Origin: a bacterium
Lineage (GTDB): Bacteria; Planctomycetota; Planctomycetia; Planctomycetales; Planctomycetaceae
NCBI GenBank assembly: GCA_016124895.1
Contig: WGMU01000099.1
Span: forward strand, 1 to 42,919
Length of the DNA: 42,919 bases
Direction of reading: 5' to 3'
Below are positions 6,001 through 42,919 of this stretch, one piece after another; the first letter of the stretch is position 1, and each line of letters opens with the position of its first letter. The position numbers were made by a program, and so were the translations under genes. A model generated the notes under the pieces. That model searched no databases. It was not told the origin of the DNA and worked only from the letters and a program-made list of their open reading frames with translations.

Positions 6001-9000
6001 ACGTTCCGTCGCCAGTGTTGGCTGCGGCATCGACCAGGAAGTCGAACGTGTCTCCGGAAACGAACGTCACTCCCGCTGCCGGCACGCCGTTGATCAGCAG
6101 GTCGCCGGCCGAAACGCTCGATGCCAGCAGCGGCTCGGAGAATTGAATGCGGTACGTCGCCGGAAAACTGCTCAGCAGCGCGCCATCGTCGGGACTGGTA
6201 TCGAGGACTGTTGGTGGCGCGTCCGCTCCCGAAGCCCCACTGACCGACAGGACGTAGTCACCGGCATCTCCGGCGGTCAGAATTCGCACGCGATAAGTGC
6301 CGGTCGATGTCGCCGAATAACTGATGACCGCGTTGCGCCCGTCGGCCGCCGAGTTATCGTCAGAAGCGAGCAGCATTCCATCCGGAGCGTACAGCTCGAC
6401 CATCGGATCCAGCTGATTGACAACGCGGTTGCCTCCATCGAACGGTGTCGCTGTTTCGATCTGCAGTGAGTCGCCCGCCAGCACGGCGATGCGGAACCAG
6501 TCAGACTCGGCAATCGGATCGAGCTGAAAGCTGCCGACCTGCGTCGCCCAGCGGTTGTTCGCGGCGGCGTACTCGTTAAACACCCAGAACGTCGCATCGT
6601 CCGACGGGTCGATCGCCAGTCCCGAATAGTCGCCCCAGCGGTTGCGGCCGCCAGTGTCCGTCAGCTCGTAATTGCCGAGTCCCGTCGCGTATTCGTTGAC
6701 GGGAGTTGTGACCGTCCCGAGCGGATCCGTCGCAAGCCGTCCGGTAAACGCCGCGCCGTAAAACTGTTCGCTGCCGCCCGTCGAAAAGCCGATGCCCATA
6801 TTGCCGTTGCCATCGACCGCGATTGCCGGCATCCAGGCGTGGATGCCTGGACCAGGATCGACGTTGCCCGACTGCACCAGCGTCGGTGTTCCGACGGGGA
6901 AGTTGTTCGTCGCAACTTCGTACCAGCGTACGACGTCCTCGCCGTCGCCAATCGCCGGATCGGTGATCGCGTGAGCGAACCAGGCGGACCCGTCGCGCCA
7001 GACGCCGGTCATGATCCGGCTGCTGACTGAGTCCGCTCCAGTGCCGCCGCCCGACTGCGGCGGATCGATCGGCTCGTTATACGACGGGACGCTGAGGTTG
7101 AACGTGTCCCTTCCCGGCGTTCCGAGCACGTCCGTGATCGCGTGGATCCGGATCGTCGAACCGCCGAGTGCCTCCGCGAAATACTCCGTTGAGCCCGAGT
7201 TGAATTGATTCAGCGGGAACACGCTGAAGCCGTTGAAGAACTCTTCGTAGACCTTGTTGACCGGCCCGCCGCTCAGCAGCGGAGCCTTTTCGATCGCCGT
7301 GATCCCCGCATAAACACCGCTGCCGGTATCGATCGGAAAGTAGTTGCCCGAGATGAACAGGGCATCGTTGTTGACTCCGACCTTTTCATAATCCGGGAAG
7401 TGATTGCCGCTGCCGAGTCCCAGCGCCGCCGGGTTATGAGTAAAGTCGATTTTGTACTTGTGCCAGTCCGCCGACCCGCTGCCGGTCGGTGTCGAATCCG
7501 TCGAAACGGCGAGATAGACCGCGCTGGTGTCGTCGGTTCCCGAGCCGTTGATCGAATCAATCCCGATGACGAAGAACCGCTGAGTGTCGTCGTCGAAAAT
7601 GATCCACGGATCGAACACCGTGCTCGTCGCGCCGACGCTGCCGAAGAAGCCGCTCGAACCGTTCATGTTCTGCGAGAAGATCTGATTCCCCGTCGCTTTG
7701 TCATAAACGACGAGGTTCGTATTCACCGACGTGACGACCTGGCCAGGACCAACGGCAAGCGTCGAATCGGGCGGGATAAATCCCGTGTAGCCCGGTCCGG
7801 CGAACGATTGCAGCAGATCGAGACCCGCTCCCGCCTGCGCATCAACACCGCCAAGTACCGTCGCATTCGGGCCAATCCGTTGTGCCGTATCGAACGAATT
7901 GTTGGACTCAAGATCGAAGACCGCGTCCACTGTCACGACCAGGCTGTACTGTGGAGCCGAGTCGACCACGCGGACGTAATACGTGTCGGGCAGACCGTCC
8001 GAGGTCAGATCGACAAACCCGCTGATCGACTGCTCGACGTTTGCCGCCGCGATGCCGGTTGTCAGCAACGTCTGCGAGGCATCGTACAGTTCGAGTTGCG
8101 AGCCTGATCCGCTGAGATCGTCAATCACAACGGAAGCCGACTGCCCGTCGTCCAGGGTGAACGAGTACCAGTCGTCTGTGATAAACGAGGGGGTCGTTCG
8201 GAACCGAATCCCGTCGTAACCGCGGCCGTCCGTTGTCAGTGGGTAATTGTCGAACTGCTGAAACCGAATCTGGAAATCTGAGCCGAGCAAAATCCCCGCA
8301 GCATCCGCCGCTGCGACCAGATCGATGCTGACCGTCTCCCAGCCAGCGGGAGTCGTCGCGTTGAGCACTGTGTACCAGGTGACGCCGTCCGCACTGATCG
8401 CCACGCCGTCGCCGTTCGCGCTGCCAGTAAACGAGTCCGGCAGCGGCGACTCTTCGTCGTTAAACGCCGCGTGCTGAAACTCAAGCGTGACAGCGCTGTA
8501 GCCGGACAGGTCGACCGTCAGCGTCGCTTCGTTCAGGTTCGGCTGAAGGTCCTGAGCGACGTCCATCAGCAGCGCGTAGTTGCCCTCGCCGGTGCCGTAC
8601 GTGCCCGTGACCTGAATGCGCCCGTCGGCCGTCGACGAGTTCGTCGTCCAGCGTCCGTCGAGCGAGCCGCTTTCAAAGTCGTCACCAAGCCGCGGTTCGG
8701 ACGCGGCAACCACCGCCCCGCGCGACGCTCCGCTGTCGAGCGTCAGAAAACTCGCTGTCAGATCCTGAGCCGTCGCCAGCGAATCGTTTCCCGCGCCGCC
8801 AGACTGCTCAGGCTCGATGGCCGCATTCAGAGTGACGTCGAGCGAGTAAGTTCCGGTCGTCGACGACGCGCCGCCAACGTTGATCGTATACGTGCCGGAA
8901 CTCGTCGCCGCGACCGTCTGAATAACGAGTGAATCGCCGACCGCGCTGCTTGTTGTAGCGGCCAGCGTTGCCGCTGCTGAATCGAGGATTTCCACATCCG

Positions 9001-9295: not shown

Positions 9296-9458
9296 TGCAT
9301 TCGCTGAAAAGAACGGCTCACGCTGCCCGCGACTCCTGACCCGGCAGAGTGTAGAAGCGACAACGAACCGATGCGATGTGCCTGCGGGTGAGAGGCAGGA
9401 TTCGCTGGAATTCAACGGCGACCGATTGACGATCCAGACCTGCGGGCCAGCTCAACAG

Positions 9459-10154
9459 TCACGGCTTCCGGATCGAAAAGTTGTCGTACAGGACCTCCCG
9501 ATCGACCGTCGTGATGTTCATGTTCGACTTGGTCGGATGGGCGATGCCTTCTGATTTGAGCGTGCCGCTCAGCTTGCCGTCGATCCACGTCTTCATGACG
9601 TCGCCTTCGATGCGGATCACGAGGTCATGCCACTTCTCGGGATCCATTTCGACCTTGTTCCACGACTGCTTCGTTTTGAGCATGTCCTGCGTGGCCTGGT
9701 CCAGCTTGGTCCCCGCCTGTCGCTTGTCGCGGATCTCTTTGAGAAAGATCCCGGTCTTGCCGTCATAGAGGACGACCGAATCGTGGTTGACGCCGACGTG
9801 GCAGATGTGCCCTGCGTGCGAGCCCTTGTAGTCGAGGTCGCGGATCATGATGTTGAACCGTTTTGATCCAGCGAACTTGAATGAAACGGCAATCTCCAGA
9901 TCGCTCAGCGGCGGCAGCTTGATCGAATTGACCGACGGGTGGTCCGCATCCTTCGGCGTGATCCCGACCAGCACCCCGTCGCGGACGACCGACTCGCTCT
10001 TCCAGGAACCCCATTCCTTCTTCAGTTCGGTTCCGGAGAAGTCGTCTTCAAACAGCACCGTCTTGAACGACCCCGCCTGCAGCGGCGAGGTCAGACACGT
10101 CGCGAGTGAGAAAAGTCCGAAGACTGTGGCGGTTACAGGGGATGTTGTTTTCAT
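9459..10154 (-). CDS. Secreted DUF1080-type (3-keto-disaccharide hydrolase-like) protein
   Basis: This 231-residue protein begins with a signal peptide (MKTTSPVTATVFGLFSLATC, cleavage expected near residue 27). The rest is one concanavalin-like beta-sandwich: FEDDFSGTELKKEWG near the start, then strands ending in TWIDGKLSGTLKSEG and VLYDNFSIRKP. This pattern is that of the DUF1080 / 3-keto-disaccharide hydrolase family, which is very expanded in planctomycetes and proposed to bind or cleave modified sugars outside the cytoplasm. I cannot identify catalytic residues. A GGAG lies about 10 nt before the ATG. It follows the SNF2 helicase gene by about 80 bp on the same strand, but the two functions are unrelated. 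The alternative is a plain LamG-like carbohydrate-binding protein. Confidence 0.75.
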   Translation of the reverse strand: MKTTSPVTATVFGLFSLATCLTSPLQAGSFKTVLFEDDFSGTELKKEWGSWKSESVVRDGVLVGITPKDADHPSVNSIKLPPLSDLEIAVSFKFAGSKRFNIMIRDLDYKGSHAGHICHVGVNHDSVVLYDGKTGIFLKEIRDKRQAGTKLDQATQDMLKTKQSWNKVEMDPEKWHDLVIRIEGDVMKTWIDGKLSGTLKSEGIAHPTKSNMNITTVDREVLYDNFSIRKP

Positions 10155-10235
10155 CGGTACTGAACTCCGCTGGGTTTATGGTCCGTCGAGGTGGTCGCTG
10201 TCTTGAGACAAGCCATCGCTGCAGAATTCGCTGTA

Positions 10236-13200
10236 TCAACCGAGCAGGATCTGCAGATCCTCGGCAGTCAGCGAGCTGATCAGGCTGTTATCCGCGGAGA
10301 TGATTGCGTCGGCGAGTTCCTTCTTGCTGCGCTGAAGTTCGAGAATCCGTTCTTCGACGGTGTCTCGGCAGATGATTCGATAAGCGAAAACGTGCCGTTC
10401 CTGCCCCATGCGGTGCGCCCGGTCGATCGCCTGGGCTTCGACCGCCGGGTTCCACCACGGGTCGAGAATGAAGACGTAGTCGGCGGCGGTCAGGTTGAGA
10501 CCGTGCCCGCCGGCTTTCAGGCTGATCAGGAAGACCGGGCAGTTCGCGTCCGACTGAAACCGCTCGACTTTCTGTTTGCGATTGCTGGTTTTGCCGTCGA
10601 GGTATTCGAACGTAATGCCCTGAGTCGCCAGCCGCTCTTTGACGATCGCCAGCAGACTTGTGAACTGCGAGAAGACCAGCACCTTGTGGCCTTCACCGAG
10701 AATCTCCTCAAGTTGTTCAAGCAGCATGTCGAGCTTTGCGCTCGGCTCGTCGCCGCGCTTCCCATCGATCAGCCCCGGATGGCAGGCCGCCTGCCGCAGA
10801 CGCAGCAGCGCTTCGAGCACGTGAATCTTCGACTGCGCCAGTCCCTTGTCGGCGATCTTCTGTGTGAGGCTTCTGCGGTAATAGTCCCGCAGTTCGTCGT
10901 ACGCCTTGCGCTGCTTCTTACCCATTTCACAGTACAGCGTCTGCTCAGTCTTGTCCGGCAGTTCTGTGAGTACCTGGCCTTTCGTCCGCCGCAGCAGGAA
11001 CGGCTTCAGGCCGTCGGCGATCGTCTGCAGATCGGCCGTGTCTGCGTCGCCCTTCGCCAGCCGCCCGAAGTTCGTACTGCGGCCGAGCATTCCTGGGTTA
11101 AGAAACTCGAACAGTGACCACAACTCGCCGAGGTGGTTTTCAATCGGCGTTCCGGTCAGCGCGAGCCGATGGTCGGCAGTGATCAACCGGCTGGCTTTCG
11201 CCACCTGCGAATTCGAGTTCTTAATCGCCTGCGCTTCGTCCAGAATCGCGTAGTCAAACCGCTGATCCTTCAGGTGAGCGATGTCCAGCCGCAGCGTTCC
11301 GTATGTCGTGACGATGACGTCGAACTCGTCGAGCCGTTCGCGGAGTTCCTTGCGCTCGGTGCCGTGATAGCTGGCAACTTTGAGTTTCGGGGTGAAGCGG
11401 GCTGCTTCGTCGATCCAGTTGAAGACGAGGCTCTTCGGGACGACAACGATCGACGGCCGCCGCTGCTCGTCCTTCTTCAGCCGCCGTGAACGCCGCGCTT
11501 CGAGCAGACTCAGCACCTGAATGGTCTTGCCAAGCCCCATGTCGTCGGCGAGGCAGCCACCCAGTCGAAACTCGCGCAGGAAGTTCAGCCAGCCGAGCCC
11601 CTGCTGCTGATATTCGCGCAACTCGCCCTGAAACGTGCGCGGAGCGTTCTTTGGTTTCACTCCGTCGAATTTCTTGAGCCGCGAGCAGCAGTCGCGAAAT
11701 GTCTTGTCGAGTTTCGTTTCGGACTGCGCCGCCAGCAGCGCATCGAGAATCAGCGCCTGTGACGGCACGAAACGGATGCCGTCTTCTGTTTCGCGGCCCA
11801 TCTCCAGCAGGCCGCCGTACTTCTTCAGCCAGTCTTCCGGCAGCAGTCCGAACGAGCCATCGTCGAGCTGCACGTAATCGTCGCCGGCCCGCGCCGCCTT
11901 CAGCAGTTCCGGCAGGCTGACCGTCGCGTCGCCGAAATCGATCTCGGCCGTCAGATCGAACCAGTCAATGCCGCTTGACACCGACATGCTGAAGCTGCCC
12001 GCCGAGCGTCTCACGTCGCGTCCCTGCGCGTTGACCGTCCAGCCGTGATTGATCAGTGCGCGAACAATCTCGGGCAACTGCTTTTTGGGAAACTGGTACG
12101 TGGCCCCGTCGCTGCGACTGCCTGCATACTGCGCCGGAATCAGAGGCAGGCCGGACAACGCCTGCAGCAGTTGCCGTTCGGCTTCGGCGTTGCGACAGAA
12201 GCACTGCCCGTTTTCAAGCAACAGTCCACGTGACGGAGCTTCCGGTGCGATCCGCACGCCACCGTAGTTGAGCAGTGTCGTTGCATACAACTGACCCGTA
12301 TTCCGGCACCAGTTGGCGACCTCACTGTCCTTCAGGATGAGGAACTGTCCAACGGGCTCGGAGATAACTTCGGCCGGCCGCAGCGATTCCGGCAGACGAT
12401 CGATCGCGACGCCGCCGGCATCAACCAGGTGTGCGAGAAACTCGCTGCGGTCTGCAAACGGGACAGTGAACAACGACGTTTTCAGCAGCGTTTTCAGCCA
12501 CGGAAAAGAGTCGTCAACGTGAAACTCGGACGCGATGCCGCCGCGGACGAGCACGCCGCCGTCAAATGCGGCTTTCACGTCGCTGGCCGCAAACGTTTCG
12601 TCGCCGCGCGTGAACTGTCCAGTGACGGTCCACTGCGAGTTCTCATCGTCTGGCTTGATCAACACCTCGAAGCTCCAGCAACCGCCATCATCCCAGATCA
12701 GAGCCGCGGCGTCGGCTGGTGATTCGTTGGCACTCAGACTGACGACAAGTCGCCCTGTCGCGCACAAAGCCGGGAACAACGATCGCAGCGCACTGACCGG
12801 CGGCAGCGAACGATCCGTCCGATTGCTGTATCCATACTGGTATCCGTAACCGGGCCGATCACTGGGATCCCGCCAGTTCAGCAGTCCCGCGAGTTGATCC
12901 CGCAGTCGGGCATCCGGAATGGACGGCAGCATTGACGCGTCAAGAGAGAACGCTTTTACCTTGCCCGGCACTCCTGTCGAACGCAGTTCGCGCTGCCGGA
13001 ACAGAATGACGGGGCGGTTACGAGCGACACTTTCCGCCAGATCGAGAACCAGCCAGACGTCCGTCTGCTGATTCAGCAGCGGCTGACGGTTTGCCGTCTG
13101 GAAATGCGAGACTGCCTGACGACTCACATCCTGCATCCAGCGCTGCCAGGGAGCGGGCACGGGCACTGCTGCTTTCCCGCCGGTTGACTTTGTCATTGAC

Positions 13201-13670
13201 GCCGCATCGAGCAAGGCCCTCGGAACGTGAGTCATCTGCTTGACGAGTTCCGAAATCACGCCGTCGTCGATCTGTCCCTGTTCGATCTTCCGTCGATTCT
13301 GGTAACTCAACCGCAGCAGATCGATCGGCAGCTCATCCAGCAGTTCGGGCAGCGACGGTGTGGAATCAGTACCGCTGTCGAACTCGTCGTCAGTGAATTC
13401 GTCCGCTTCCAGCAGCGTTGCCCAGATGTGTTTGCAGAGATAGCCGTCGGCAAACCTCGGGCAGGAACACGCCGCCTCGCGCCACGTCCCGTTTTTATTC
13501 AGGACAACGGACACGTCATAACAGTCACCGACCTCGTTCCAGACTTCGCTGTTGATCCGAGTGTCGGTGCAGCTATCGATTGCAACCAGCTCATCCAGAA
13601 AATACTGGCGTCCGCGGCTGCGGGTTCTGGAATCGAACTTTGACTGAAAGCGTTGCGCGAGCGTGCTCAT
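10236..13670 (-). CDS. SWIM zinc-finger SNF2-family DEAD/DEAH-like helicase
   Basis: The 1,144-residue product has a SWIM zinc finger near the N-terminus (C68, C70, C79, H81; CxC-x8-CxH). A long middle region, probably the bacterial SNF2-associated domain, precedes the two RecA-like lobes. Walker A is DDMGLGKT (about residue 705), the Walker B/DEAx box is DEAQ (about 810), followed by LTGTPIEN, and the second lobe holds VLVFSQFTSLL, SLKAGGHGLNLT and DRAHRMGQ. These are the standard SNF2 ATPase motifs, so it is expected to be an ATP-driven DNA or nucleoprotein translocase in the cytoplasm; the SWIM finger is for nucleic acid or protein binding. Length and order match the bacterial SWIM-SNF2 group. 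The exact target is unknown. The start at 13670 is the first ATG; no strong ribosome binding site is visible. Confidence 0.93.
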   Translation of the reverse strand: MSTLAQRFQSKFDSRTRSRGRQYFLDELVAIDSCTDTRINSEVWNEVGDCYDVSVVLNKNGTWREAACSCPRFADGYLCKHIWATLLEADEFTDDEFDSGTDSTPSLPELLDELPIDLLRLSYQNRRKIEQGQIDDGVISELVKQMTHVPRALLDAASMTKSTGGKAAVPVPAPWQRWMQDVSRQAVSHFQTANRQPLLNQQTDVWLVLDLAESVARNRPVILFRQRELRSTGVPGKVKAFSLDASMLPSIPDARLRDQLAGLLNWRDPSDRPGYGYQYGYSNRTDRSLPPVSALRSLFPALCATGRLVVSLSANESPADAAALIWDDGGCWSFEVLIKPDDENSQWTVTGQFTRGDETFAASDVKAAFDGGVLVRGGIASEFHVDDSFPWLKTLLKTSLFTVPFADRSEFLAHLVDAGGVAIDRLPESLRPAEVISEPVGQFLILKDSEVANWCRNTGQLYATTLLNYGGVRIAPEAPSRGLLLENGQCFCRNAEAERQLLQALSGLPLIPAQYAGSRSDGATYQFPKKQLPEIVRALINHGWTVNAQGRDVRRSAGSFSMSVSSGIDWFDLTAEIDFGDATVSLPELLKAARAGDDYVQLDDGSFGLLPEDWLKKYGGLLEMGRETEDGIRFVPSQALILDALLAAQSETKLDKTFRDCCSRLKKFDGVKPKNAPRTFQGELREYQQQGLGWLNFLREFRLGGCLADDMGLGKTIQVLSLLEARRSRRLKKDEQRRPSIVVVPKSLVFNWIDEAARFTPKLKVASYHGTERKELRERLDEFDVIVTTYGTLRLDIAHLKDQRFDYAILDEAQAIKNSNSQVAKASRLITADHRLALTGTPIENHLGELWSLFEFLNPGMLGRSTNFGRLAKGDADTADLQTIADGLKPFLLRRTKGQVLTELPDKTEQTLYCEMGKKQRKAYDELRDYYRRSLTQKIADKGLAQSKIHVLEALLRLRQAACHPGLIDGKRGDEPSAKLDMLLEQLEEILGEGHKVLVFSQFTSLLAIVKERLATQGITFEYLDGKTSNRKQKVERFQSDANCPVFLISLKAGGHGLNLTAADYVFILDPWWNPAVEAQAIDRAHRMGQERHVFAYRIICRDTVEERILELQRSKKELADAIISADNSLISSLTAEDLQILLG

Positions 13671-14051
13671 GCGGCATCCATTCCTGAGATTGAGTGACCT
13701 GCCTGTTGACTGGCGTCGCTGTGTCTGGCCATCGGAGAGCCCTGCACTTCGTAGCCGGGCATCGTAACTTCCGGCATTTCAATCTCCACTGAAAAGCCGG
13801 CGTCGCGGTCGGGCTGCTGACGATCAGGCATTTCAATTGAATCCCGCAGGATGGCCGAAGCTGAATCCGCGGGAATTCAATCACACAGCGAAACGGATGA
13901 GTTGCTGCGAATCGCGCTACGAGCGGCCGTCAATCTCAGGCTCAGTCAATCACCGTCAAACTGTCGTCAGTGACAGCAACGATTCGCCCGGCTAGTCTTA
14001 TCGCGGTTGGTCGCCCTGTCCGCTCACCTGCAACTCGCCGGGTCAGAAAAC
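13671..14051. other. Divergent intergenic region between helicase and moxR genes
   Basis: About 380 bp with no convincing gene. It should contain the promoters of both flanking genes, but I cannot place -35/-10 boxes confidently. It contains an imperfect inverted repeat (listed separately) and two copies of GGCATTTCAAT at 13774-13784 and 13827-13837. Confidence 0.6.
13836..13881. promoter_or_regulatory. Imperfect inverted repeat, possible operator or hairpin
   Basis: ATTGAATCCCGC (13836-13847) is matched by GCGGGAATTCAAT (13869-13881), whose complement is ATTGAATTCCCGC, so the arms differ by one inserted base. The spacer is 21 nt. It lies in the divergent gap between the helicase and moxR genes, and the GGCATTTCAAT repeat overlaps its left arm. 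A regulatory role is inference. Confidence 0.3.
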
Positions 14052-15098
14052 ATGTCGTTCGATTCTGTGTCTTCTTCCACCGTCCGCCTGCTGTCTCCGG
14101 AAGACGTCGAACGGGCACAGCGGGAGATCCGGTCGCTGCTGGATGGGCTGGGGACGGCAATCCTGGGACAGAGTGAGCTGCTCGAACGCGTCGTGATCTG
14201 CCTGCTGGCGCGCGGGCATCTGCTGCTTGAAGGCCTGCCGGGGCTCGGCAAGACGGAGCTGGTCAAGTCGCTCTCGTCGCTGCTGGGCCTTTCGTTCCGG
14301 CGGATTCAGTTCACACCGGATCTGCTTCCCAGCGATATTCTCGGGTCGCCGATTCTCGAAGATCAGGGTGGGTCACGGCGACTCGTGTTTCATCAGGGAC
14401 CGGTGTTTGCCAACCTGCTGCTGGCCGACGAAATCAACCGTGCGACGCCGAAGACGCAGGCCGCTCTGCTGGAAGCGATGCAGGAACGCCGTGTGACCGT
14501 GATGGGCGAGTCGCATCCGCTGCCGACACCGTTCTTCGTACTCGCGACTCAGAACCCGATCGAACTCGAAGGGACGTATCCACTGCCTGAGGCGCTGATC
14601 GATCGCTTCACGTTCAAGATCAACGTGAGCAGCGTATCGAGCGACGTGCTCAAAGAGATCATCTCGACGCGCCAGCACGGCATCGCACCGGAACTCCAGA
14701 CGGTTCTCGACGGCCCGCAACTGACTGAGCTGTTTGACCTGGTCGATCGCGTACATCTGCCGGAAGCTGTCGGTGATTACGTGGCGCGGCTCGTCACAGC
14801 GACGCATCCTGATCGCGATGGAGCGCCAGACTTCGTCAGGCGGTTCGTCAAGTTCGGTGCGTCACCGCGTGCCGCGATCGCGATTGCAGGAACCGCGCGC
14901 GCGGCGGCTCTGCTGGCCGGCAAGCCCAATGCTGGTTTCGACGACGTCCGTCGCGTCGCGCCGAGTGTTCTCGGGCATCGGCTGATTCTCGACTACTCCG
15001 CACGCATGGAAGGCTGGTCAACGTCGCGCGTGGTCAATGCTCTGCTCGACGCCGTCAACGAGATCGCTCGTCCGATTCCTCAGGATGTGGAGGCGTGA
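14052..15098 (+). CDS. MoxR-family AAA+ ATPase
   Basis: This 348-residue ATPase has Walker A GLPGLGKTE (about residues 60-68), Walker B LLLADEINRA (about 122-131) and the sensor stretch ATQNPIELEGTYPLPEA, all diagnostic of MoxR. MoxR proteins act as chaperone-like ATPases that help assemble or activate von Willebrand A-domain or envelope protein complexes. I start at the ATG at 14052 (MSFDSVSSS) because conservation begins soon after; an upstream in-frame ATG at 14007 adds 15 unremarkable residues. The stop codon overlaps the GTG of the next gene (GTGA), so the two are probably translated together. The usual DUF58 partner gene is absent next to it; the adjacent gene is a large membrane protein instead. 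Confidence 0.93.
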   Translation: MSFDSVSSSTVRLLSPEDVERAQREIRSLLDGLGTAILGQSELLERVVICLLARGHLLLEGLPGLGKTELVKSLSSLLGLSFRRIQFTPDLLPSDILGSPILEDQGGSRRLVFHQGPVFANLLLADEINRATPKTQAALLEAMQERRVTVMGESHPLPTPFFVLATQNPIELEGTYPLPEALIDRFTFKINVSSVSSDVLKEIISTRQHGIAPELQTVLDGPQLTELFDLVDRVHLPEAVGDYVARLVTATHPDRDGAPDFVRRFVKFGASPRAAIAIAGTARAAALLAGKPNAGFDDVRRVAPSVLGHRLILDYSARMEGWSTSRVVNALLDAVNEIARPIPQDVEA

Positions 15099-17173
15099 CC
15101 GCGATGCGCGAAACCAGTTCACAGACTCGTTTCCCGGCGACGCAGACTCGTTTTCTGCCGATGGACTTGTTCCGTAGGATTCCGACGGTCTTTGCCGCAC
15201 TGGTGGTGTTGAGCATCAGGCCGGGCGGCGTGTTTGCCGGTGGAGCGGACTCGTCGGCCCGTGAGGACGATATTCGGTTCACGGCGGACTGGCGCTGGGC
15301 CGGCGGGACACTCGGCGGTTATTACCCGATCCGCGTCTCGCTGCAGAATGCCGGGCCGCCGCGGACGATTAACGTTGTGCTCAAGTCGACCATGAGCGGG
15401 ATGCCCAGCGTTTCGCGGCGCGTCAACGTCGATCAGAACGCGTCGGCAGCATTTTCGCTGCTGGTGCCGCTGGTTGGGCAGAACTGCTTCGGTGAGCTGA
15501 ACGTTTACGCCAACGGACGGGAACTCGAAGCACTGCACTGTCCGGTCAATTTTCCGGTACTGGACTGGTCGGAGAACTCGTTTTCAACACTGGTCATCGC
15601 CGCTGCGCCGGTCGACTTCACGGAATACGAAGCCGCTGTCACGTCACTGTTCGGTGGCAGCTCCTCGTACGGAAGTCAGGCCAGCGATCACCAGCACGTC
15701 GAACCGCTGCGTCTGCCGGACTCCTGGCTGGCGTACAGCGGGCTTGATCTGGTGGTCACCTCGATCGAAGTCCTCAACAATCTGGAGACTCTGCCGCGCA
15801 AAGCGCTGATTGACTGGGTACGTGCGGGAGGCACTCTGGCGACCTATACGGAGCAGGACGGCACGGCAGTCCTCATGGATGCGGTCGATGATCTGTCTGA
15901 CACCAACCAGTCCGCGTTTCGATCCAACTGGCGGCCGGTTCCTCTGAGTCTACGACGTCCCGTTGGTCGCCTTAAGGTCGACGAATACGGCAACGAGAGT
16001 TCGCGTGAGGCTCCGGAACCTGGCAATTTCAAATGGCCGGCGGAAGCCGGCGCGCTGCAGATTCGGCAATTGGGACTTGGGCAGGTCGCAATGCTGCCGC
16101 CGCGGCCGTTTGACGGTACTTATCAGGACTGGGCCTGGCTGCTCAACGGAATTCAGTTCCGGCAGCAGCGGATGGCGGCGCGACTCGGCGTTGCCGGCAG
16201 ATCCACCAATGACGAGTTCTTTCACTTTCTGATTCCCGGCGTGCGCAGCGTTCCCGTCATTGCCTTCGCGGTCGTGATCACACTCTTCGCCGTGCTGATC
16301 GGACCGGTGAACTACTTCGTACTGGCACGACGCAAGCGACAGGGTTTTCTGGTGATCACCATTCCCGCGATCGCACTGCTGTGCAGCCTGGCAATTTTCG
16401 TGTACTCGTTCGTCGCGCATGGCGTTGCCGTGCGGTCACGCGTGCGCAGCGTCACGTGGATTGATCAGGGCAGCCAGTCAGCCGTCAGTATGGCGAGGAT
16501 CGCCTGGTTCGCAGGCTTTGCACCGTCCGATGGCCTCAACTTTTCGACAGCGACGGCCTTCATTCCGATCTGGCATTCCGAAGGCGGGTTTGGAAACGGC
16601 AGCGTCGACTGGACCGAGTCGCAGCGTCTGGCAAGCGGCTTTCTGCGCTCGCGGACACGGACACAGGCGTTGACAACAACCGTTCGCGACGAACGCGGGC
16701 GACTGACGATCTCGACGCCCGTCACCGGACGTGCCGGCCTGAAGAGCCTTGACGTGACGAGTGGTCTTGAATGGCCACTCGAAGCGCTGATCGTCTGGGA
16801 CGACGACGGGAACGCCTGGAGCACCGGCCGCGTCGAGCCCGGTCAGGCAGTCACTTTGACGGAGCTTTCAAGTGAAGCTCAGGACCGCTTTCTCAAACTG
16901 CTGCGCCGATCCGCACCCGCGATCCCTCCCGAACTGACAGAGCCCTCGAACGGGATGTTCGACATTCGGTCCATCATCGGCGTGGCGACCAACCATGCGC
17001 TCTCGCAGGGGCAGATGGAGCAGGCCATCGATCGCGTTGCTCAGGGCACAAAGCCACTCAACAAAGAATTTGCTCGCCGTTACGTCGCGATCGCCGCCGA
17101 AGCACCCGGCATCGAGTTCGGCACAAAAGTCACCGTCGTCGACGGCTGGCATCTCATTATCGGCGCGTACTGA
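15095..17173 (+). CDS. Large membrane protein of unknown function, coupled to moxR
   Basis: The 692-residue product has an N-terminal export segment (around MDLFRRIPTVFAALVVLSI, after a ~20-residue lead), a long extracytoplasmic beta-rich region, then two adjacent transmembrane helices around residues 385-450 (VPVIAFAVVITLFAVLIGPV and ITIPAIALLCSLAIFVYSF, separated by a basic ARRKRQG loop), and a second soluble domain. I do not recognise a catalytic motif. The GTG at 15095 overlaps the moxR stop; an ATG at 15104 has GGAGG (15089-15093) at a better 10-nt distance and may be the true start. The overlap implies co-expression and that this is the client or partner of the MoxR ATPase, which is inference. 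Confidence 0.8.
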   Translation: MTAMRETSSQTRFPATQTRFLPMDLFRRIPTVFAALVVLSIRPGGVFAGGADSSAREDDIRFTADWRWAGGTLGGYYPIRVSLQNAGPPRTINVVLKSTMSGMPSVSRRVNVDQNASAAFSLLVPLVGQNCFGELNVYANGRELEALHCPVNFPVLDWSENSFSTLVIAAAPVDFTEYEAAVTSLFGGSSSYGSQASDHQHVEPLRLPDSWLAYSGLDLVVTSIEVLNNLETLPRKALIDWVRAGGTLATYTEQDGTAVLMDAVDDLSDTNQSAFRSNWRPVPLSLRRPVGRLKVDEYGNESSREAPEPGNFKWPAEAGALQIRQLGLGQVAMLPPRPFDGTYQDWAWLLNGIQFRQQRMAARLGVAGRSTNDEFFHFLIPGVRSVPVIAFAVVITLFAVLIGPVNYFVLARRKRQGFLVITIPAIALLCSLAIFVYSFVAHGVAVRSRVRSVTWIDQGSQSAVSMARIAWFAGFAPSDGLNFSTATAFIPIWHSEGGFGNGSVDWTESQRLASGFLRSRTRTQALTTTVRDERGRLTISTPVTGRAGLKSLDVTSGLEWPLEALIVWDDDGNAWSTGRVEPGQAVTLTELSSEAQDRFLKLLRRSAPAIPPELTEPSNGMFDIRSIIGVATNHALSQGQMEQAIDRVAQGTKPLNKEFARRYVAIAAEAPGIEFGTKVTVVDGWHLIIGAY

Positions 17174-17274
17174 CGTGGCGCCGGCGACCGATTCCGGGCG
17201 GCGATCGCCGGCCTCGGTCAGACCCGGAGCGGCTGGTTGGCCCCCGGATTCGGCCTCGATAAGATGCCCCGCCA

Positions 17275-17296
17275 CTGATTCGGGAATCCGAATCAG
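17275..17296. promoter_or_regulatory. Perfect 9-bp inverted repeat upstream of the permease gene
   Basis: CTGATTCGG (17275-17283) and CCGAATCAG (17288-17296) are exact complements around a 4-nt centre, ending 50 nt before the permease ATG at 17347. No T-run follows, so a transcription-factor operator is more likely than a terminator, though it could also be a hairpin in the leader. Confidence 0.4.
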
Positions 17297-17346
17297 ATCC
17301 GTACTGCCTGCTTTGTTCTCTGAGATTTTCCTGCCAGGAGCCCCTG

Positions 17347-18759
17347 ATGTTTCACCCGCTCGTGATCATGACAATCGGCATCGTTCTGGTGATCGGAATG
17401 ATCATGTGGCTGCGCGTGAATGCGTTTATCGCCCTGATCACGGCGGCGATGGTTGTCAGCCTGATGGCGTTTGAAGAGGACGAATCCGGGAAGCTGCATC
17501 TGGCGAGTGACGCGATCTCGCGCGTGGCCGATGCGTTTGGCGGAGCGTGTGGGAGCATCGGAATCGTGATTGCTCTGGCCGCCGTCATCGGTACGTGCAT
17601 GATGGATAGCGGCGCTGCCGATCGCGTCGTCCGCGCGTTCGTGAATCTGCTCGGAGAAGAACGCTCACCCTGGGCATTGATGGGCAGCGGCTATGTCCTG
17701 GCGGTGCCTGTATTTTTTGACACGGTGTTTTACCTGCTCGTGCCACTGGCCCGGTCATTCTACAAACGCACGGGCAAGGCTTATCTGAAATGTATTCTGG
17801 CAATTACGGCCGGCGGGGCCATTACTCATACGCTCGTGCCGCCGACGCCGGGACCGCTGACGATGGCGGCAACGCTTGGCATTGATCTCGGCAAGATGAT
17901 TCTTGTCGGTGCGCTGGTCGCGCTGCCCGCGGCCGTGGTCGGCATCTGGATCGCTGGCTTGTTTGACCGTCTCTACAACATTGAAATGCGCGAAGTCGCC
18001 GGTCATGAAGAACCGGAGCCGCTGACTGATGATCAACTGCCGGGCCTGTTCGAATCTCTGCTGCCGGTGGTGCTGCCGGTCATCATGATCGCCTGCCACA
18101 CGGCCGCGAAATCGCTTGCCGACATGGCGTCGGGCAGCCTGGCCGAAACGGCGGAAGGTCTCTCGCACTACACGGCAGTCTTCGGCAATCCGAACTTTGC
18201 ACTTCTGGTTTCCAGTGGTCTGGCTCTGATGACCTACTTCCGGCAACGCAAGCCGACAAAAGAAGCGGTTGCAAAAGTTGTCGAAACATCACTGATGAGC
18301 GGCGGCGTCATCATTCTGATTACTGCTGGCGGATCAGCCTTTGGCGCCATGCTGAAGGCGGCTCATGTCGGCGACGCGATTGCTGCTCTGGCCGAAAAGA
18401 CATTCGGAGCCGGCTCGGTCGAAGGCATGCTGATGCTTTTCCTGGGGTTCGGGATCGCATGCGTACTGAAAGTGGCGCAGGGGTCGAGTACCGCAGCGAT
18501 GATTATCACATCGGGCATGATGGTCGGAATGATCGACGGTGTGGATCTGCCGTTCGACGTGGTCTACCTGGCCACAGCCATTGGCGCCGGGTCACTGGTC
18601 GGAAGCTGGATGAACGATTCCGGCTTCTGGATCTTCGCCAAAATGGGTGGGCTGACCGAACGGGAAGCTCTGTCAACATGGACTCCTTTACTTGTTGTAC
18701 TGGGACTTGTCAGCATGGCAACGACGCTGCTGCTGGCGGTCGTCATGCCGCTGAACTGA
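17347..18759 (+). CDS. GntP-family permease (gluconate/organic acid:H+ symporter type)
   Basis: This 470-residue protein is almost entirely hydrophobic, with about twelve or more membrane segments. It has the GntP signatures [17 protein letters not shown] (near residues 119-135) and [23 protein letters not shown] (about 160-182), plus the C-terminal [10 protein letters not shown] motif. The family imports gluconate, related sugar acids or D-serine-like acids with protons across the inner membrane; the substrate here cannot be read from sequence. The start is well supported by AGGAG six nt before the ATG. The next gene begins 27 bp after the stop, so the two are probably co-transcribed. A palindrome lies 50 nt upstream. 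Confidence 0.92.
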
Positions 18760-18786
18760 CGGAACTGCTGTTCGAGGAGCCCGGCG

Positions 18787-19812
18787 ATGAAAGCTGTCTG
18801 CGTTTGTCTGGCCGTTCTGCTGGTGGGTTCGACTCTCCCTGGAGCGGAAGATACTCCCGCGGTCTCTGATCAGATCGCGGCCGCCGTTCGCAAATCGATC
18901 GAGTTGATTGAACACAGCGGCGAAGTTTACCGCCGAGAGCGACAATGCTTCTCCTGCCATCATCAGGCCCTGCCCGTGCTGGCTCTGACCGAAGTGCGTC
19001 GCCGCGGTTTTACGATCAACGAGGATGAGTACAAACAGCAGCTCGCTCATACGGCCGCCCATCTGAAACGCGGCCTTCAGAGTTATCTCGCCGGGAAAGG
19101 GCAAGGCGGACGCGGAGATACGGCGGGCTACGCGCTGTGGACGCTGGCTGCCGGTGAGTGGCCAGCCGACGAGGTCACAACGGCGGTCGCCTCATACCTG
19201 CTGGGTAAAGAGGCCGATTTGCCGCACTGGAATCCACCGTCAACGACGAGACCACCAACGGCCGGCAGCCAGTTCACGTCGACGGCTCTGGCGATCTACA
19301 GCCTGCAGGCGTTCGGTGATGGCAAACAGTCCGATGCGATCACGGCGCGACTTGTGAAGACACGTGACTGGCTGCAGACGGCCAGTGTGAAAGACACCGA
19401 GGACCGCGTCTTCCGCCTGCACTCGCTGCACCAGCTCGCTGGCAAACAGGACCAGTTGCGCGAGTTCGCTCAGGAACTGATCGACCGGCAGCGGGATGAC
19501 GGCGGCTGGGCTCAGTTGCCGGACCGTGACAGTGACGCGTACGCGACCGGCACGGCTCTGGTGACGCTGCAGCAGTCCGGTTGTCTGCTGGTGTCCGACC
19601 CGGCGTACCAGCGCGGCGTTCGCTACTTGCTGAAGACGCAGCAGGACGATGGTTCCTGGCACGTCACCACACGAGCGAAACCCATTCAGCAGTATTTCGA
19701 GAGTGGCTTTCCACACGGAAAGGACCAGTTCATCTCGATGGCAGCCACATGCTGGTCCACAATGGCGCTGGCGTTGACCTGCGATGTCGCGACCGTCGAA
19801 GAAATGCCGTAG
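18787..19812 (+). CDS. Secreted protein with a CxxCH heme motif and prenyltransferase/squalene-cyclase-like QW repeats
   Basis: The 341-residue product has a signal peptide (MKAVCVCLAVLLVGSTLPGA). Soon after it reads CFSCHH (about residue 54), a CxxCH c-type heme-binding motif, followed by helical repeats with QW-type motifs such as RQRDDGGWAQL and TQQDDGSWHV. This is the alpha/alpha-barrel repeat of the squalene-hopene cyclase and prenyltransferase superfamily, but the acidic DxDD cyclase motif is not visible, so it is probably not an active terpene cyclase. Such CxxCH-prenyltransferase-repeat proteins are common in planctomycetes and of unknown function. GAGGAG precedes the ATG by about 7 nt. 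It sits 27 bp after the permease and 49 bp before the hydrolase-like gene. Confidence 0.82.
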   Translation: MKAVCVCLAVLLVGSTLPGAEDTPAVSDQIAAAVRKSIELIEHSGEVYRRERQCFSCHHQALPVLALTEVRRRGFTINEDEYKQQLAHTAAHLKRGLQSYLAGKGQGGRGDTAGYALWTLAAGEWPADEVTTAVASYLLGKEADLPHWNPPSTTRPPTAGSQFTSTALAIYSLQAFGDGKQSDAITARLVKTRDWLQTASVKDTEDRVFRLHSLHQLAGKQDQLREFAQELIDRQRDDGGWAQLPDRDSDAYATGTALVTLQQSGCLLVSDPAYQRGVRYLLKTQQDDGSWHVTTRAKPIQQYFESGFPHGKDQFISMAATCWSTMALALTCDVATVEEMP

Positions 19813-34768: not shown

Positions 34769-37216
34769 TCAATGCTGGAACAGAAACTCTTTCGAGTTCA
34801 GGATCGCCCAGCCGACATCTTCGAGGGCCAGCGTCCGGTCCTGACTGGACGCAATGTGGTTTTTCGACGCGGCGATTTCCGCATCAACCGGCTTGCGGCA
34901 CAGCGCGGCCAGGTACAGCGTTTCGATGATCTCATCGTCGGACTTGCCATCCTTGACCATCTGGTGAATGCGACCGTTGTCGGCTCTCAGTTTGTTATGC
35001 ACGGTCGGGCCGTTGATCATCTGCAGAGCCTGCGAGAGGTTCGACTCGTTCGAGCGTTCACACTGGCAGGCCATCTCACGCTGAGGCTGGCCGAAGACCT
35101 TCAGGAAGTAATGATCGGTCGGCGGATCCGGCAGGGCAACCGCTCGCGTTCCGGGCGGCAGACCTTTGAAGGATTCCGGCACGCTGGTCACCTGACAGAT
35201 CGCATCGAGAAGCTGCTCGGCCGTCAGCAGACGGGTCGTGGCGTGCGACGCGTAGATCTCGTCGTCCGCGTTGAAGTCGTTCTTCTTCGAACTGAGCTGG
35301 TACGTCCGGCTGTTCATGATCGTGCGGATTGCCCACTTGCGACTGAAGCCGTGCTGTGCGAACTGCTGAGATAGCTCGTCAAGCAGTGGCGCGTTTGACG
35401 GCGGGTTCGAGTCGCGGAAGTCGTCGACAGGTTCAACAATGCCGCGGCCCATCAGGTGTCCCCAGATCCGGTTGACTGACGCTTTCGCGAAGAACGGATT
35501 GTCCGCAGCGGTCAGCCAGTCGGCGAAGACCTGCCGCCGGTCCTGCTCGGCCGGGACGTCGACATCGCCTTTCAGCAGCAAATGGACCTTCATCGTCTGA
35601 CCGGTCCGCGGCTGCTGAATCTCACCCGAACGCGTCGCGTGAATGATTTCCTCATCCGGAGCCGCTCCCTTCTGCCGGCCAATCCGCGTAAACGCCGCAG
35701 CGATGCCGTAATAGTTGTCCTGGCTCCAGCGCTCGAACGGGTGATTGTGGCACTTCGCGCATTGAATGCGGATTCCCAGGAAGAGCTGGGCGGTCGTCTC
35801 GGTGGCGTCGTTCGGGTCACGGCTCGTACGCCAGTAGTTGGCCGCCGGGTTCTCGAAAACGCTGCCCGACGCTGTCAGCAGTTCGCGAGCAAACTGGTCG
35901 AGCCCCTTGTCCGTGCGAATACTCTCGTAAATCCAGTGCTGGAATTTGTAGACACCCGTATCAGTGACCTTCTTGGCATTCGACCGCAGAATGTCGCTCC
36001 ACTTGAGCGTCCAGAATTCGGCGAAGTCGTTTGAGTCGAGCAGGCGGTCAACAAGCTTCGCCCGCCGTGTGTCAGCCGAATCCGCCAGGAAGGCCTGAGT
36101 CTCTTCGATGCGCGGCAGCCGTCCGGTCAGGTCGAGATACGCCCGGCGAATGAATTCCTCATCCGAGCACAGATCGGACGGCAGAATCTGAAGCTGCTTG
36201 AGCTTGCTGAAGATCTTTGTGTCGACAAAGTTGGCTTCTGGCGGGTTACTCCACTGAAAGCCAGGGACATCTTCGAGAAACGTGATGTAGGACGTGTCCA
36301 TCTTGTCGAGGTAACGAGCGAGCACAGCGGTTTCGCCGCGACCGATTTTCTCGACGAGCCCGTCGGGCGTAACGGTCGCAACCGATTCGTTGCTCGAACT
36401 GAAGACGGTCAGGGCCGTCAGGTCGCGCTGCGAACCATCACTGAAAAAACCGGTGACCTGCAGTTGCTGACGGTCAGCGGGAGCGTTCAGCGTGCGCAGG
36501 TTCGGGCTGACCTGGACGCGGGTCAGTGTTGCCGTCTCGGGTGGGTCAAGCTGCAGACCCTCGGCAATCCAGTTGCGGAGCACGGTGTAGGACGCGTCGC
36601 CTTTGTGCAGCCGCCGTCCGCCGCCGTGTGCGACCTCCATCAGAGCCTTCTGCAGGATGAGACTTTCTTCCGGCTTAAGAATGTTCGTTCGCCGGCCGAA
36701 GTACTCGGACCGCAGCGTCAGGATGTCGAGCGGCGGGTCGAAGCCGCGCAGCGACAGTCGGAAGCCACCTTTACCCGACGGCGAACCGTGGCAGGCTCCC
36801 ATGTTGCAGCTTGACTTCGTGAGAGCCGCCAGCAGTTCATTGTTGAAACGCACCGGCTGCGGCTGGTCGAAGCTGCTGACCGTGACGTCAGCGACTGCAG
36901 ACTGATCGCCGATCGTCGCTTTAAGCTGAGCCGTACCGTTGCCTGCCGCTCGGGCGACAGTTCCGTCGATCCGGACAACGGCCGGGTTCGTCGATTCGAG
37001 TTTGACGTCGTGCGTCACGTCAAAGACGCCCTTGGCCCCTTGGCCACTGATGACAAGCTGCTGCTCGGCACGCGGACCTTTCAGCTCAAACTTCGCCGTG
37101 TCAAACGTCAGTTTTGACGGTTGCTCGGCAGCACCGGCCGTTCCCGGCGGCTGAGCCAGCGAGGCTGCGGTCAGGCACAGGAACGCGTTCAGAAACCAGT
37201 GACTCTGGTGACGCAT
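34769..37216 (-). CDS. Secreted DUF1549/DUF1553 protein with Big2-like domains and cytochrome c-like motifs
   Basis: This 815-residue protein has a signal peptide (NAFLCLTAASLAQ), an Ig/Big2-like domain (about residues 35-115), a CNMGACHGS motif near 135 (a cytochrome-like CxxxCH), a second Big2-like domain, then DUF1549 (EEFIRRAYLDLTGRLPR) with CAKCHNHPFERW near 485 and DUF1553 (SVNRIWGHLMGRGIVEPVDD, RTYQLSS, LTAEQLLDAI) at the end. This combination is a planctomycete hallmark; the proteins are exported and thought to be redox or polysaccharide-related, but no activity is established. GGGAG six nt before the ATG at 37216 fixes the start. Its partner ends 74 bp upstream, so the two form one unit. 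Confidence 0.92.
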   Translation of the reverse strand: MRHQSHWFLNAFLCLTAASLAQPPGTAGAAEQPSKLTFDTAKFELKGPRAEQQLVISGQGAKGVFDVTHDVKLESTNPAVVRIDGTVARAAGNGTAQLKATIGDQSAVADVTVSSFDQPQPVRFNNELLAALTKSSCNMGACHGSPSGKGGFRLSLRGFDPPLDILTLRSEYFGRRTNILKPEESLILQKALMEVAHGGGRRLHKGDASYTVLRNWIAEGLQLDPPETATLTRVQVSPNLRTLNAPADRQQLQVTGFFSDGSQRDLTALTVFSSSNESVATVTPDGLVEKIGRGETAVLARYLDKMDTSYITFLEDVPGFQWSNPPEANFVDTKIFSKLKQLQILPSDLCSDEEFIRRAYLDLTGRLPRIEETQAFLADSADTRRAKLVDRLLDSNDFAEFWTLKWSDILRSNAKKVTDTGVYKFQHWIYESIRTDKGLDQFARELLTASGSVFENPAANYWRTSRDPNDATETTAQLFLGIRIQCAKCHNHPFERWSQDNYYGIAAAFTRIGRQKGAAPDEEIIHATRSGEIQQPRTGQTMKVHLLLKGDVDVPAEQDRRQVFADWLTAADNPFFAKASVNRIWGHLMGRGIVEPVDDFRDSNPPSNAPLLDELSQQFAQHGFSRKWAIRTIMNSRTYQLSSKKNDFNADDEIYASHATTRLLTAEQLLDAICQVTSVPESFKGLPPGTRAVALPDPPTDHYFLKVFGQPQREMACQCERSNESNLSQALQMINGPTVHNKLRADNGRIHQMVKDGKSDDEIIETLYLAALCRKPVDAEIAASKNHIASSQDRTLALEDVGWAILNSKEFLFQH

Positions 37217-40207: not shown

Positions 40208-41050
40208 TCAGAAGCCACCGCCGGATGACGGGACTGCGGCAGGGCCTCCGGCCTGAGCGCGAGGGATTTCGTCGGTGGCCGTCATTTGCTCGATGGCCAT
40301 ATCGATCCCGTCGTATGGACGTGCCGAGCGTGCAAGGATGTCGTCGCTGGGAACAATCGTCACCAGTGCGAGCTGAATGTTCTGACCGACGAAGTAGCGG
40401 TACAGACGAAAGTCATAGCGGGCCTTTCGCCTGTCCACTTCGTAGGTCATCTCCGGGTCGGACAGCAGAATCCAGTCGTAATCCTTGCGCGGCACATAGG
40501 CAGTGCCACTGGGCGAACGGACTTCGGCAAACTGCCACGGCTCAATCGCGGAACTCGGCTGATAAACCCGCGAGCTGTCAGCCAGAGCCTTGATCACGTG
40601 ATCCATAAAGTCCGCAGGAATCACCGTTGGATTGTCGAATTTCTGACGATAGTCGTCGTGGTTGGTGCAGATGAGGATCCATGCCGGGAGTTCCTCGACA
40701 TCACTGTCAGGAATCTCGACACGCATTTGAGCCTGCCAGGCTCCGACAAGACCCGGCAGCTTACTGGTCAGAAACGCCGGCTGCCGTTTGTCTGGCGGCG
40801 GGGGAGAGTTTTCATCGGGGGCCGGTGGTGGAGGCGGCAGCTCAGCAAACCCCTTCGGCGGCCGGAACGTAATGCCCTCGGACGTCCAGGTTCGCGATTC
40901 GAGCAGGTTGTCGACCTGTTGCCGATAGCTGAAGTACGCCGTCGATGCAGCCAGTCGTTCTTCGTACGCCTGCGATCCGCAACCGAGAAGCGTTAACGAC
41001 GCGGTCAGCAGGCACAGCAGGAAAGCAGCGGTCATCGTCGGGCGAGTCAT
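40208..41050 (-). CDS. Predicted lipoprotein of unknown function
   Basis: The 280-residue product has a lipoprotein signal peptide ending LTLLGCG, with the lipobox cysteine at residue 24, so it is anchored to a membrane. The first mature stretch carries a proline-rich PPPPPAPDENSPPPPD linker (about residues 73-88). The rest is a single domain with aromatic and charged strands (WQFAEVRSPSGTAYV, RYFVGQNIQLALVTIVPSDD) and a glycine-rich end. I do not recognise the family; planctomycetes carry many such proteins. It is convergent with coaC and its upstream side borders the Rhs remnant. Confidence 0.75.
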   Translation of the reverse strand: MTRPTMTAAFLLCLLTASLTLLGCGSQAYEERLAASTAYFSYRQQVDNLLESRTWTSEGITFRPPKGFAELPPPPPAPDENSPPPPDKRQPAFLTSKLPGLVGAWQAQMRVEIPDSDVEELPAWILICTNHDDYRQKFDNPTVIPADFMDHVIKALADSSRVYQPSSAIEPWQFAEVRSPSGTAYVPRKDYDWILLSDPEMTYEVDRRKARYDFRLYRYFVGQNIQLALVTIVPSDDILARSARPYDGIDMAIEQMTATDEIPRAQAGGPAAVPSSGGGF

Positions 41051-41159: not shown

Positions 41160-41518
41160 CCAGCCAGGAGCGGGCTCTACACACAGCAGGCAGACAATCG
41201 GACCGCGCGACATGCCGGCTGAGTCTGAAGGCTCTCCGTGCGACGGCAACAGTTCGAGTTCATCCAGTTCCAGCAGCGGCTCCACGATCGGCAACCTGAT
41301 CGAACGCAGCGAAACGAAGTACGACGACCGTGGCCGCGTCCATCGGACGATCCGCTATGCCGTGGACCGGCCACGGGAATCGTGGGCAACTCACTGACAG
41401 ACAATTCCTGTTACGACGCCGCGGGGAACGTGATCAAGCGGCTTCCAGCAGGCTCGGACCTGTTTACGAAGACGGACTACGACAGTACTTCCGGTGTACT
41501 TGTTTACCGAAAAACAGG
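41160..41518 (+). pseudogene. Rhs/YD-repeat gene remnant, frameshifted and cut off beside IS66
   Basis: The plus strand reads NSSSSSSSSSGSTIGNL, then SETKYDDRGRVHRTIRYAV, with YDxxGRV typical of Rhs/YD repeats. Near 41367 one base appears to be missing: the frame runs into a stop at 41397 after ESWATH, while the next frame continues in the same Rhs style (GIVGNSLTDNSCYDAAGNVI, then FTKTDYDSTSGVLVYRKTG). Rhs similarity stops near 41518, 40 nt before the transposase ATG. The piece lacks a start and a C-terminal toxin, so it is a fragment. The upstream boundary is approximate. Confidence 0.72.
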
Positions 41519-42919
41519 GTTGCGCATTTTGTGGAGGCCGTATAGCTTTCCGGAATCATGGATGGCGACGGCGAACCACAGTCTGAATGTCCTGGTTGCA
41601 GGCGGCTGAGCGCGGAGCTGGAACAGCTTCGCCGCGAGGTCGAACTGCTGCGGCAGGCGCTGGAGGAATCGCGGCGGGCGGGGAAGCGGCAGGCGGCTCC
41701 GTTTCGCAAGCAGAAGGTTCCCGCTCCGCAGAAACCGGGACGCAAGCCCGGTGATGAGTACGGACAGCAGTCGCGGCGCAGCATTCCAGAGCAGATTGAC
41801 GAGCACTACGACGTGCCGCTGCCGGAGTACTGCCCGCACTGCGGCTGTCACGAGTTGACCACCGACCGCGTCTGTCCGCAGTACCAGACGGACATCCCGC
41901 GAAAGCCGATTCACCGGCAGTTCAATATCCATATCGGCCGCTGCTCCGGTTGCGGCGAACGCGTTCAGGGACGGCACGAACTGCAGACATCGGATGCTCT
42001 GGGAGCGGCGGCCAGTCAGTTGGGAGCCGATCTGCAGGCCGCTCTGACGGTTGCTAATCAAGAGCTGGGGCTCTCACACGGCAAGTGTCGCCGGCTGATC
42101 GAGCGGCTGTTCGGGATCTCCATATCACGCAGTACGAACTGCCGGACGCAGCAGCGTCTGGCGGAGCGACTGCGGCCCTCGTACGACGCGATCGGCGCGC
42201 AGGTCCGCGGCTCACCCCGCGTCGTCTGTGATGAAACGGGCTGGCGGGTCAATGGTGAGAACGCGTGGCTGCATGACTTCGTGACCGAACGCGCGACGTA
42301 CTACGCGATCGACCCGACACGCAGTGCCGAGCCGGCCCTGCTGCTGCTCGGTGAGGACTACTCAGGCACGCTGATTCATGACGGCTGGAGCGTCTACGAC
42401 CGTTTCACTCTGGCCACTCACCAGCAATGCCTGGCCCACCTCATGCGCCGCTGCCACGAGTTATTAGAAACCGCCGTTGCCGGAGCGGTGTGGTTCCCGC
42501 GCGCCGCGCTGGATGTGTTCCGAGCGGCGCTGGCGGCCCGCGACCGCTTCCGACAGAACGAACTGACCGCCCACGGACTGCGCGTGCTGGCTGGTCGGTT
42601 CACTTCGACCATGCGCCGCCTGGTCGCGCCCGTCAAACGGAACGCCGCCAGCGAGCGTCTGGCGAAACATCTGGAGAATCATCTCGACGACCTGTTCACG
42701 TTCCTCCGTGACCCGCTGGTCGACGCCACCAACTGGCGCGCCGAGCAGGCCATCCGTCCGGCGGTCGTCAACCGCAAGGTCTGGGGCGGCAACCGCACCT
42801 GGAACGGAGCCGAAACCCAGGCCATCCTGACGACCGTCCTCGTCACCGCCGCTCAGCAGACCATCGACCCGCTCGACTTCCTCAAGCAGAACCTGACCTC
42901 ACCCCGCCACGCCTCATAC
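41519..42919 (+). mobile_element. IS66-family insertion element, right end outside window
   Basis: The element carries the transposase below and lies against the Rhs remnant. The left boundary is set where Rhs similarity ends; I could not identify the terminal inverted repeat because the right end is not in the window. No IS66 accessory tnpA/tnpB frames are visible upstream, so it is of the single-transposase type or has lost them. Confidence 0.7.
41558..42919 (+). CDS. IS66-family transposase, C-terminus outside window
   Basis: 454 codons are open to the right edge without a stop. The protein begins with a short coiled-coil leader (LSAELEQLRREVELLRQAL), then a basic segment (KPGRKPGDE), a zinc-binding domain (YCPHCGCHEL ... 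CSGCGERV) and the DDE catalytic core with VCDETGWRVNGENAW (first D), LIHDGWSVYDRF (second D) and NWRAEQAIRPAVVNRKVWGG (E). All three catalytic acids are present, so the enzyme may be active. It cuts and pastes or copies the element in the DNA. The ATG at 41558 is chosen as the first start in frame. The last few residues lie beyond the window. Confidence 0.93.
   Translation, partial: MDGDGEPQSECPGCRRLSAELEQLRREVELLRQALEESRRAGKRQAAPFRKQKVPAPQKPGRKPGDEYGQQSRRSIPEQIDEHYDVPLPEYCPHCGCHELTTDRVCPQYQTDIPRKPIHRQFNIHIGRCSGCGERVQGRHELQTSDALGAAASQLGADLQAALTVANQELGLSHGKCRRLIERLFGISISRSTNCRTQQRLAERLRPSYDAIGAQVRGSPRVVCDETGWRVNGENAWLHDFVTERATYYAIDPTRSAEPALLLLGEDYSGTLIHDGWSVYDRFTLATHQQCLAHLMRRCHELLETAVAGAVWFPRAALDVFRAALAARDRFRQNELTAHGLRVLAGRFTSTMRRLVAPVKRNAASERLAKHLENHLDDLFTFLRDPLVDATNWRAEQAIRPAVVNRKVWGGNRTWNGAETQAILTTVLVTAAQQTIDPLDFLKQNLTSPRHASY

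Follow-up and report, generated by a model that had tools for sequence, protein, structure and literature searches.

In a published account (PMC12898284), the ISBst12 group of the IS66 family comprises the members with a single ORF and without tnpA and tnpB. One element of this group, ISDge4 of Deinococcus geothermalis, is described there as having one ORF of 449 aa and an 8-bp direct repeat. A literature search on the IS66 family combined with 8-bp and tnpC gave nothing, and a search on Planctomycetes Rhs genes with an insertion sequence or pseudogene gave nothing on the subject, judged by title. The stretch of DNA analysed here, referred to as the window, has a length of 42,919 nucleotides and is contig C36 of an assembly of 195 contigs (8.13 Mb). 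It spans this contig from base 1 to the right end, and its right edge is therefore a contig end, a point overlooked in the preliminary description of the locus. The gene content, for example DUF1501, suggests a member of the Planctomycetes. Close to that edge, an IS66-family insertion sequence lies beside a remnant of an Rhs gene.

The left 1424 bp of the insertion sequence are located in the window (41496-42919, forward strand), and the last 25 bp at C192:117-141. The transposase ORF (41558-42919, forward strand) begins 62 nt inside the left IS end and has 454 codons in the window. On C192 the frame has one further codon followed by a stop, so that the transposase has 455 aa in total. The IS66 DDE model was matched by this protein, both in Pfam (PF03050, E = 2.7e-40, profile positions 2-283 of 284) and with the NCBIfam IS66 model NF033517 (250.9 bits against a cut-off of 180, E = 2.2e-74), in agreement with the IS66 transposase named in the preliminary description. 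No match was found among solved structures at E ≤ 0.001. Relatives of the transposase were present in 25 of the 59 genomes searched, own genome included, and a scan of the genome contigs gave six loci with 38-57% identity in the best segment.

It had been proposed to extend the sequence to the right and look for the other IS end. This end was found at C192:141 through a 116-bp overlap: the last 116 bases of the window are repeated exactly at the start of C192, and no other place with that identity was listed. Past the overlap, C192 continues with the transposase stop codon and then with CGGTAAACAAGTAC, ending at C192:141. As GTACTTGTTTACCG at 41496-41509 (forward strand) is the reverse complement of CGGTAAACAAGTAC at C192:128-141, the element is bounded by perfect terminal inverted repeats of 14 bp. 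Its length by the C36-C192 join is 1449 bp which, with the ORF starting so near the left end, leaves no room for more genes; a single ORF without tnpA and tnpB, as in the ISBst12 group, was thus found. Judged by its sequence, the element appears ordinary and intact, a single-ORF member of the IS66 family of the ISBst12 type.

Diverged copies of the element support the position of the right end. Similarity to a copy on C138 (90% over 141 columns) extended up to exactly this end, a copy on C136 (82% over 66 columns) had the same right end and a copy on C188 (76% over 149 columns) stopped one base before it. A shortened relative of the element was seen at about 2295-3571 of another genome stretch (L080, G011:C178:84000-92000); both end regions are recognisable there and are held in common with the window IS. 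A 13-base pattern of the IS end, with one mismatch allowed, was present at five places in the genome (C36, C136, C138, C192 and C188). Exact copies were found at four places, compared to about 0.24 expected with uniform bases, and with up to one mismatch allowed, the number of sites was not above chance, with about 10 expected and 3 in a reversed-pattern control. The weight of these sites rests on their position at the ends of the IS similarity. The C36-C192 join itself depends on one exact overlap of 116 bp, located within a mobile element; a break between contigs at such a place suggests ambiguity for the assembler, and the true right flank could be missing. A different repeat, about 140 bp long and 99-100% identical, is common to the other end of C192 and to contig ends of C193, C166 and C34. 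A further copy with 92% identity is located within C52, and the repeat may be one end of a second repeated element.

On its left side, the intergenic region with the Rhs fragment is delimited by the 5' end of a 280-aa gene (40208-41050, reverse strand). The gene is unassigned to a family and had no Pfam or NCBIfam match at E ≤ 0.001; it was matched at this threshold in 27 of 49 genomes, own included. The fragment itself (41243-41486, forward strand) is an internal part of an Rhs gene, a pseudogene truncated on both sides. Positions 41243-41485 aligned with 69% DNA identity over 251 columns (E = 5e-31) to the Rhs frame of a related genome (L081, G018:C956), an open frame of 2076 codons that matches RHS_repeat and the Rhs core model. 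On the protein level, matches to the Rhs loci of relatives were divided over two frames. Piece A (41278-41367, forward strand), which is preceded by a serine-rich low-complexity stretch, was 73% identical over 26 aa to L081, and piece B in the other frame (41367-41486, forward strand) was 70% identical over 40 aa to L100 (E = 2e-16). The Rhs-like nature of the remnant, as claimed in the preliminary description, was confirmed by these DNA and two-frame protein matches. Protein comparison was performed with 25 Rhs loci (L100-L124), three of which (L122-L124) span different regions of the gene. The frame of piece A, ending at 41367, matched 17 of them at E ≤ 0.01 and that of piece B, running to about 41486, matched 22; the matches of piece B started at 41367 in 20 loci, at 41373 in one and at 41379 in one. 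The third frame was matched in 3 of the 25 loci, more weakly (best E = 3e-7), because the conserved DNA is there read out of frame. Searched each alone, the pieces 41250-41378 and 41379-41519 had no match in Pfam at E ≤ 0.001. A DNA search of 40 genomes, with the own genome among them, gave a match to the fragment in three.

The upstream part of the Rhs gene is absent, and nothing upstream of 41243 aligned to L081 or to L082, a stretch of another genome. A few weak protein matches reached up to 41136; lying in the serine-rich stretch or in frames other than that of Rhs, they were taken as low-complexity or out-of-frame noise. This truncation on the left, also overlooked in the preliminary description, is not explained by the adjacent IS. 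Open Rhs frames in the 19 best matches had 1,342-2,351 codons; the window copy keeps about 70-80 and is thus a small piece from the interior of the gene. Similarity to YD-repeat Rhs proteins was found, and a long open frame with an Rhs core domain was not; with only about 240 bp in two frames, the fragment is therefore an Rhs remnant and not an Rhs gene. Rhs similarity runs as far as the codon ending at 41486, which leaves 9 nt to the IS end at 41496. The Rhs similarity was earlier said to stop within 40 nt of the transposase, but the actual gap is 71 nt (41486 to 41558). The stretch L082 (G002:C1:1900000-1916000) contains a short Rhs piece at about 9126-9710. Its alignment to the window Rhs piece seems frame-shifted at its start, and such remnants may recur in relatives.

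The frame of the fragment switches at about 41367. Between two common anchor residues the window has 14 nt and L081 has 15 nt, a net difference of one base fewer, and the reported loss of one base at about this position was reproduced. Apart from the site of the frame break, no stop is present within 41278-41495 in pieces A and B, as would be the case if the break were a sequencing or assembly error in a fragment otherwise in frame. Such an error has no direct counterpoint, and is considered very unlikely; the fragment would with it still be a remnant truncated on both sides.

According to the preliminary description, the rest of the Rhs gene might lie past the right edge, and an absence of Rhs sequence beyond the element would speak against an insertion into it. 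Two queries were used to search for the C-terminal part: a 400-aa Rhs segment extending some 140 residues beyond the IS site, and the RHS_repeat family, by which alone C192 was tested for the C-terminus beyond that segment. Past the right IS end, no Rhs was found on C192 with either search, and to the extent of this assembly and these searches the observation named there as a refutation was therefore made. In the own genome outside the window, the 400-aa query gave two weak matches, C13:573-1124 (36%) and C34:100133-100336, and the 40 rows for RHS_repeat were on C25 and C90 only. The Rhs pieces of the window gave nothing convincing on C192 (best E = 0.56), and the DNA of C192:142-1200 showed no link to the fetched Rhs stretches (best E = 0.47). 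Provided that the C36-C192 join is correct, the element is thus not followed by the rest of the Rhs gene. The C34 match is a second decayed Rhs piece with an internal stop (L125, G000:C34:96000-100979, about 4134-4337). Within the Rhs gene, its match lies downstream of that of the window fragment, and the piece is located near the contig end that bears the different repeat.

Other sequences in this genome were noted as well. A very long open frame of 4826 codons on C25 (L076, G000:C25, about 5120-19000, reverse strand) had 34 of the 40 RHS_repeat matches and was weakly similar to the window Rhs fragment. A 56-aa ORF at C192:143-310, beginning right beside the IS end, was considered as an Rhs-associated partner and dropped, as its best match in 21 stretches that contain Rhs genes or remnants, or lie downstream, had E = 1.1. 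Among 182 loci, its best match beyond its own copies was on the C25 stretch (E = 0.13), and no Pfam or NCBIfam family was matched at E ≤ 0.001. A 20-residue peptide in another frame beside the IS end gave a best E of 0.046.

The eight bases outside the left IS end, CTTCCGGT, do not match those outside the right end, CATGGATG, given the C36-C192 join. The best nearby shift was 4 of 7, and no good direct repeat was observed. The target duplication, which had been suggested as a check, is consequently absent as an 8-bp repeat at the window copy, a result that depends on the contig join. An 8-bp target duplication is a property of one insertion event and not of the IS66 family. IS ends were searched for in relatives, with every frame of at least 440 codons tried as transposase. 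Paired ends with an 8-bp duplication were found at 3 of 11 loci (L045, L048 and L050), the other eight being without, and shuffled controls were positive in 7 of 1050 cases. L045 belongs to another family of the same class and its transposase is 41% identical; its ends, GTACTTGGTTACCG, are nearly as in the window IS, and it carries the perfect 8-bp target duplication CAAGAAAG. The end sequences of L048 and L050 differ from those of the window IS, and no pair of ends and duplication was found at L069 and L070, other copies of the same two elements.

The first large gene on C192 is transketolase-like. Between it and the IS are two adjoining repeat copies of about 348 bp with inverted parts, 86% identical to each other (L009, G000:C192, 361-708 and 718-1064). 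Synteny of the join was analysed by searching the 280-aa gene and the transketolase-like gene in 49 genomes each, own included, and by comparing 13 stretches of relatives with 12 proteins from both flanks. Both flanking genes were present in six relatives, either on different contigs (G001, G007, G012 and G042) or about 1 Mb or more apart (about 1 Mb in G005 and about 2.4 Mb in G014); the 280-aa gene was matched weakly in several of the six. Few other neighbours are conserved, and synteny therefore says little on the C36-C192 join. Beyond the two anchors, the only matches were to the C192 gene at 5144 (38%) and to the window gene at 34769-37216 (27%), both at one place in G042. There, a relative of the C192 gene (C192:5144 onward) is separated from the 280-aa gene by about 5 kb, with the relative orientation preserved; this might be taken as support for the join. 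As the same stretch also matches the window gene, the genes probably belong to a multi-member family.

Several explanations were weighed for this arrangement. The gap of only 9 nt between fragment and element would suit a fragment carried in with the IS, one of two possibilities raised in the preliminary description. This is very unlikely, however, because the Rhs fragment lies outside the IS terminal repeat. Furthermore, the last 86 nt of the fragment were matched in only 2 of 34 loci, L041 and L042, both of which had been included for their Rhs match rather than as IS copies. The second possibility raised was that the insertion had cut a decaying Rhs gene. An IS66 element directly next to a decaying Rhs fragment was indeed found, but with no Rhs on C192 the claim that the IS cut the gene, with the rest past the right edge, was not sustained. 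It could be retained as a clean insertion into a longer Rhs gene, with the C-terminal part directly beyond and the C192 join as an assembly artefact from a second copy. Consistent with this, the contig breaks within the IS, the Rhs similarity stops just before the IS end and no target duplication is seen across C36 and C192, although one relative has it. Nevertheless, we consider a clean insertion unlikely: the Rhs fragment is truncated on the left too, the 400-aa query found just the two weak matches on C13 and C34, and RHS_repeat was confined to C25 and C90. In addition, of the five places with the end pattern, C138 and C136 (exact end) and C188 (one mismatch) have right flanks that are neither CTTCCGGT nor the flank on C192.

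The probable explanation is an ordinary IS66 element beside a doubly truncated Rhs scrap, with flanks that were later rearranged or an assembly that joins two copies of the element; the unmatched flanks, together with the finding of no Rhs beyond the element, lead to these two variants. To move, the element would use its predicted DDE transposase, which would act on the terminal repeats, and insertion would yield an 8-bp target duplication, judging from the relatives and ISDge4. It may have been placed beside the decaying Rhs scrap in the intergenic space, and after insertion the matching flank may have been lost, either by recombination between IS copies or by an adjacent deletion. Alternatively, the assembly join may mix two IS copies. 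Whereas the Rhs fragment with its frame break, the terminal repeats, the non-matching flanks and the finding of no Rhs on C192 are observations, we infer in which order the events took place, that the element is active and why the duplication is missing. Tentatively, the element could be the breakpoint of a chromosomal rearrangement, at which recombination between IS copies joined the Rhs-scrap locus and the unrelated transketolase-like locus; the target duplication would be missing for that reason.

The likely ends and length of the IS66 element in this genome are now defined. In annotation, the Rhs-like stretch should appear as a remnant lacking both ends of the gene and not as an IS-interrupted gene. 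Rhs debris and IS66 elements of the ISBst12 type are both known kinds, and the locus looks like ordinary bacterial genome debris. Compared with the Rhs (YD-repeat) genes of relatives, for example L081, the likeness is 73% over 26 residues in piece A and 70% over 40 residues in piece B. These genes are long, whereas the window fragment has about 240 bp, a frame break and neither gene end. As described in the published account (PMC12898284), ISDge4 has the ends GTGACTACTCAGCA and GTAACTGCTCAGCA, which differ in sequence from GTACTTGTTTACCG of the window element, and an 8-bp direct repeat, whereas the window copy as joined has no target duplication. ISDge4 resembles the window element in having a single ORF of similar size and short terminal inverted repeats.
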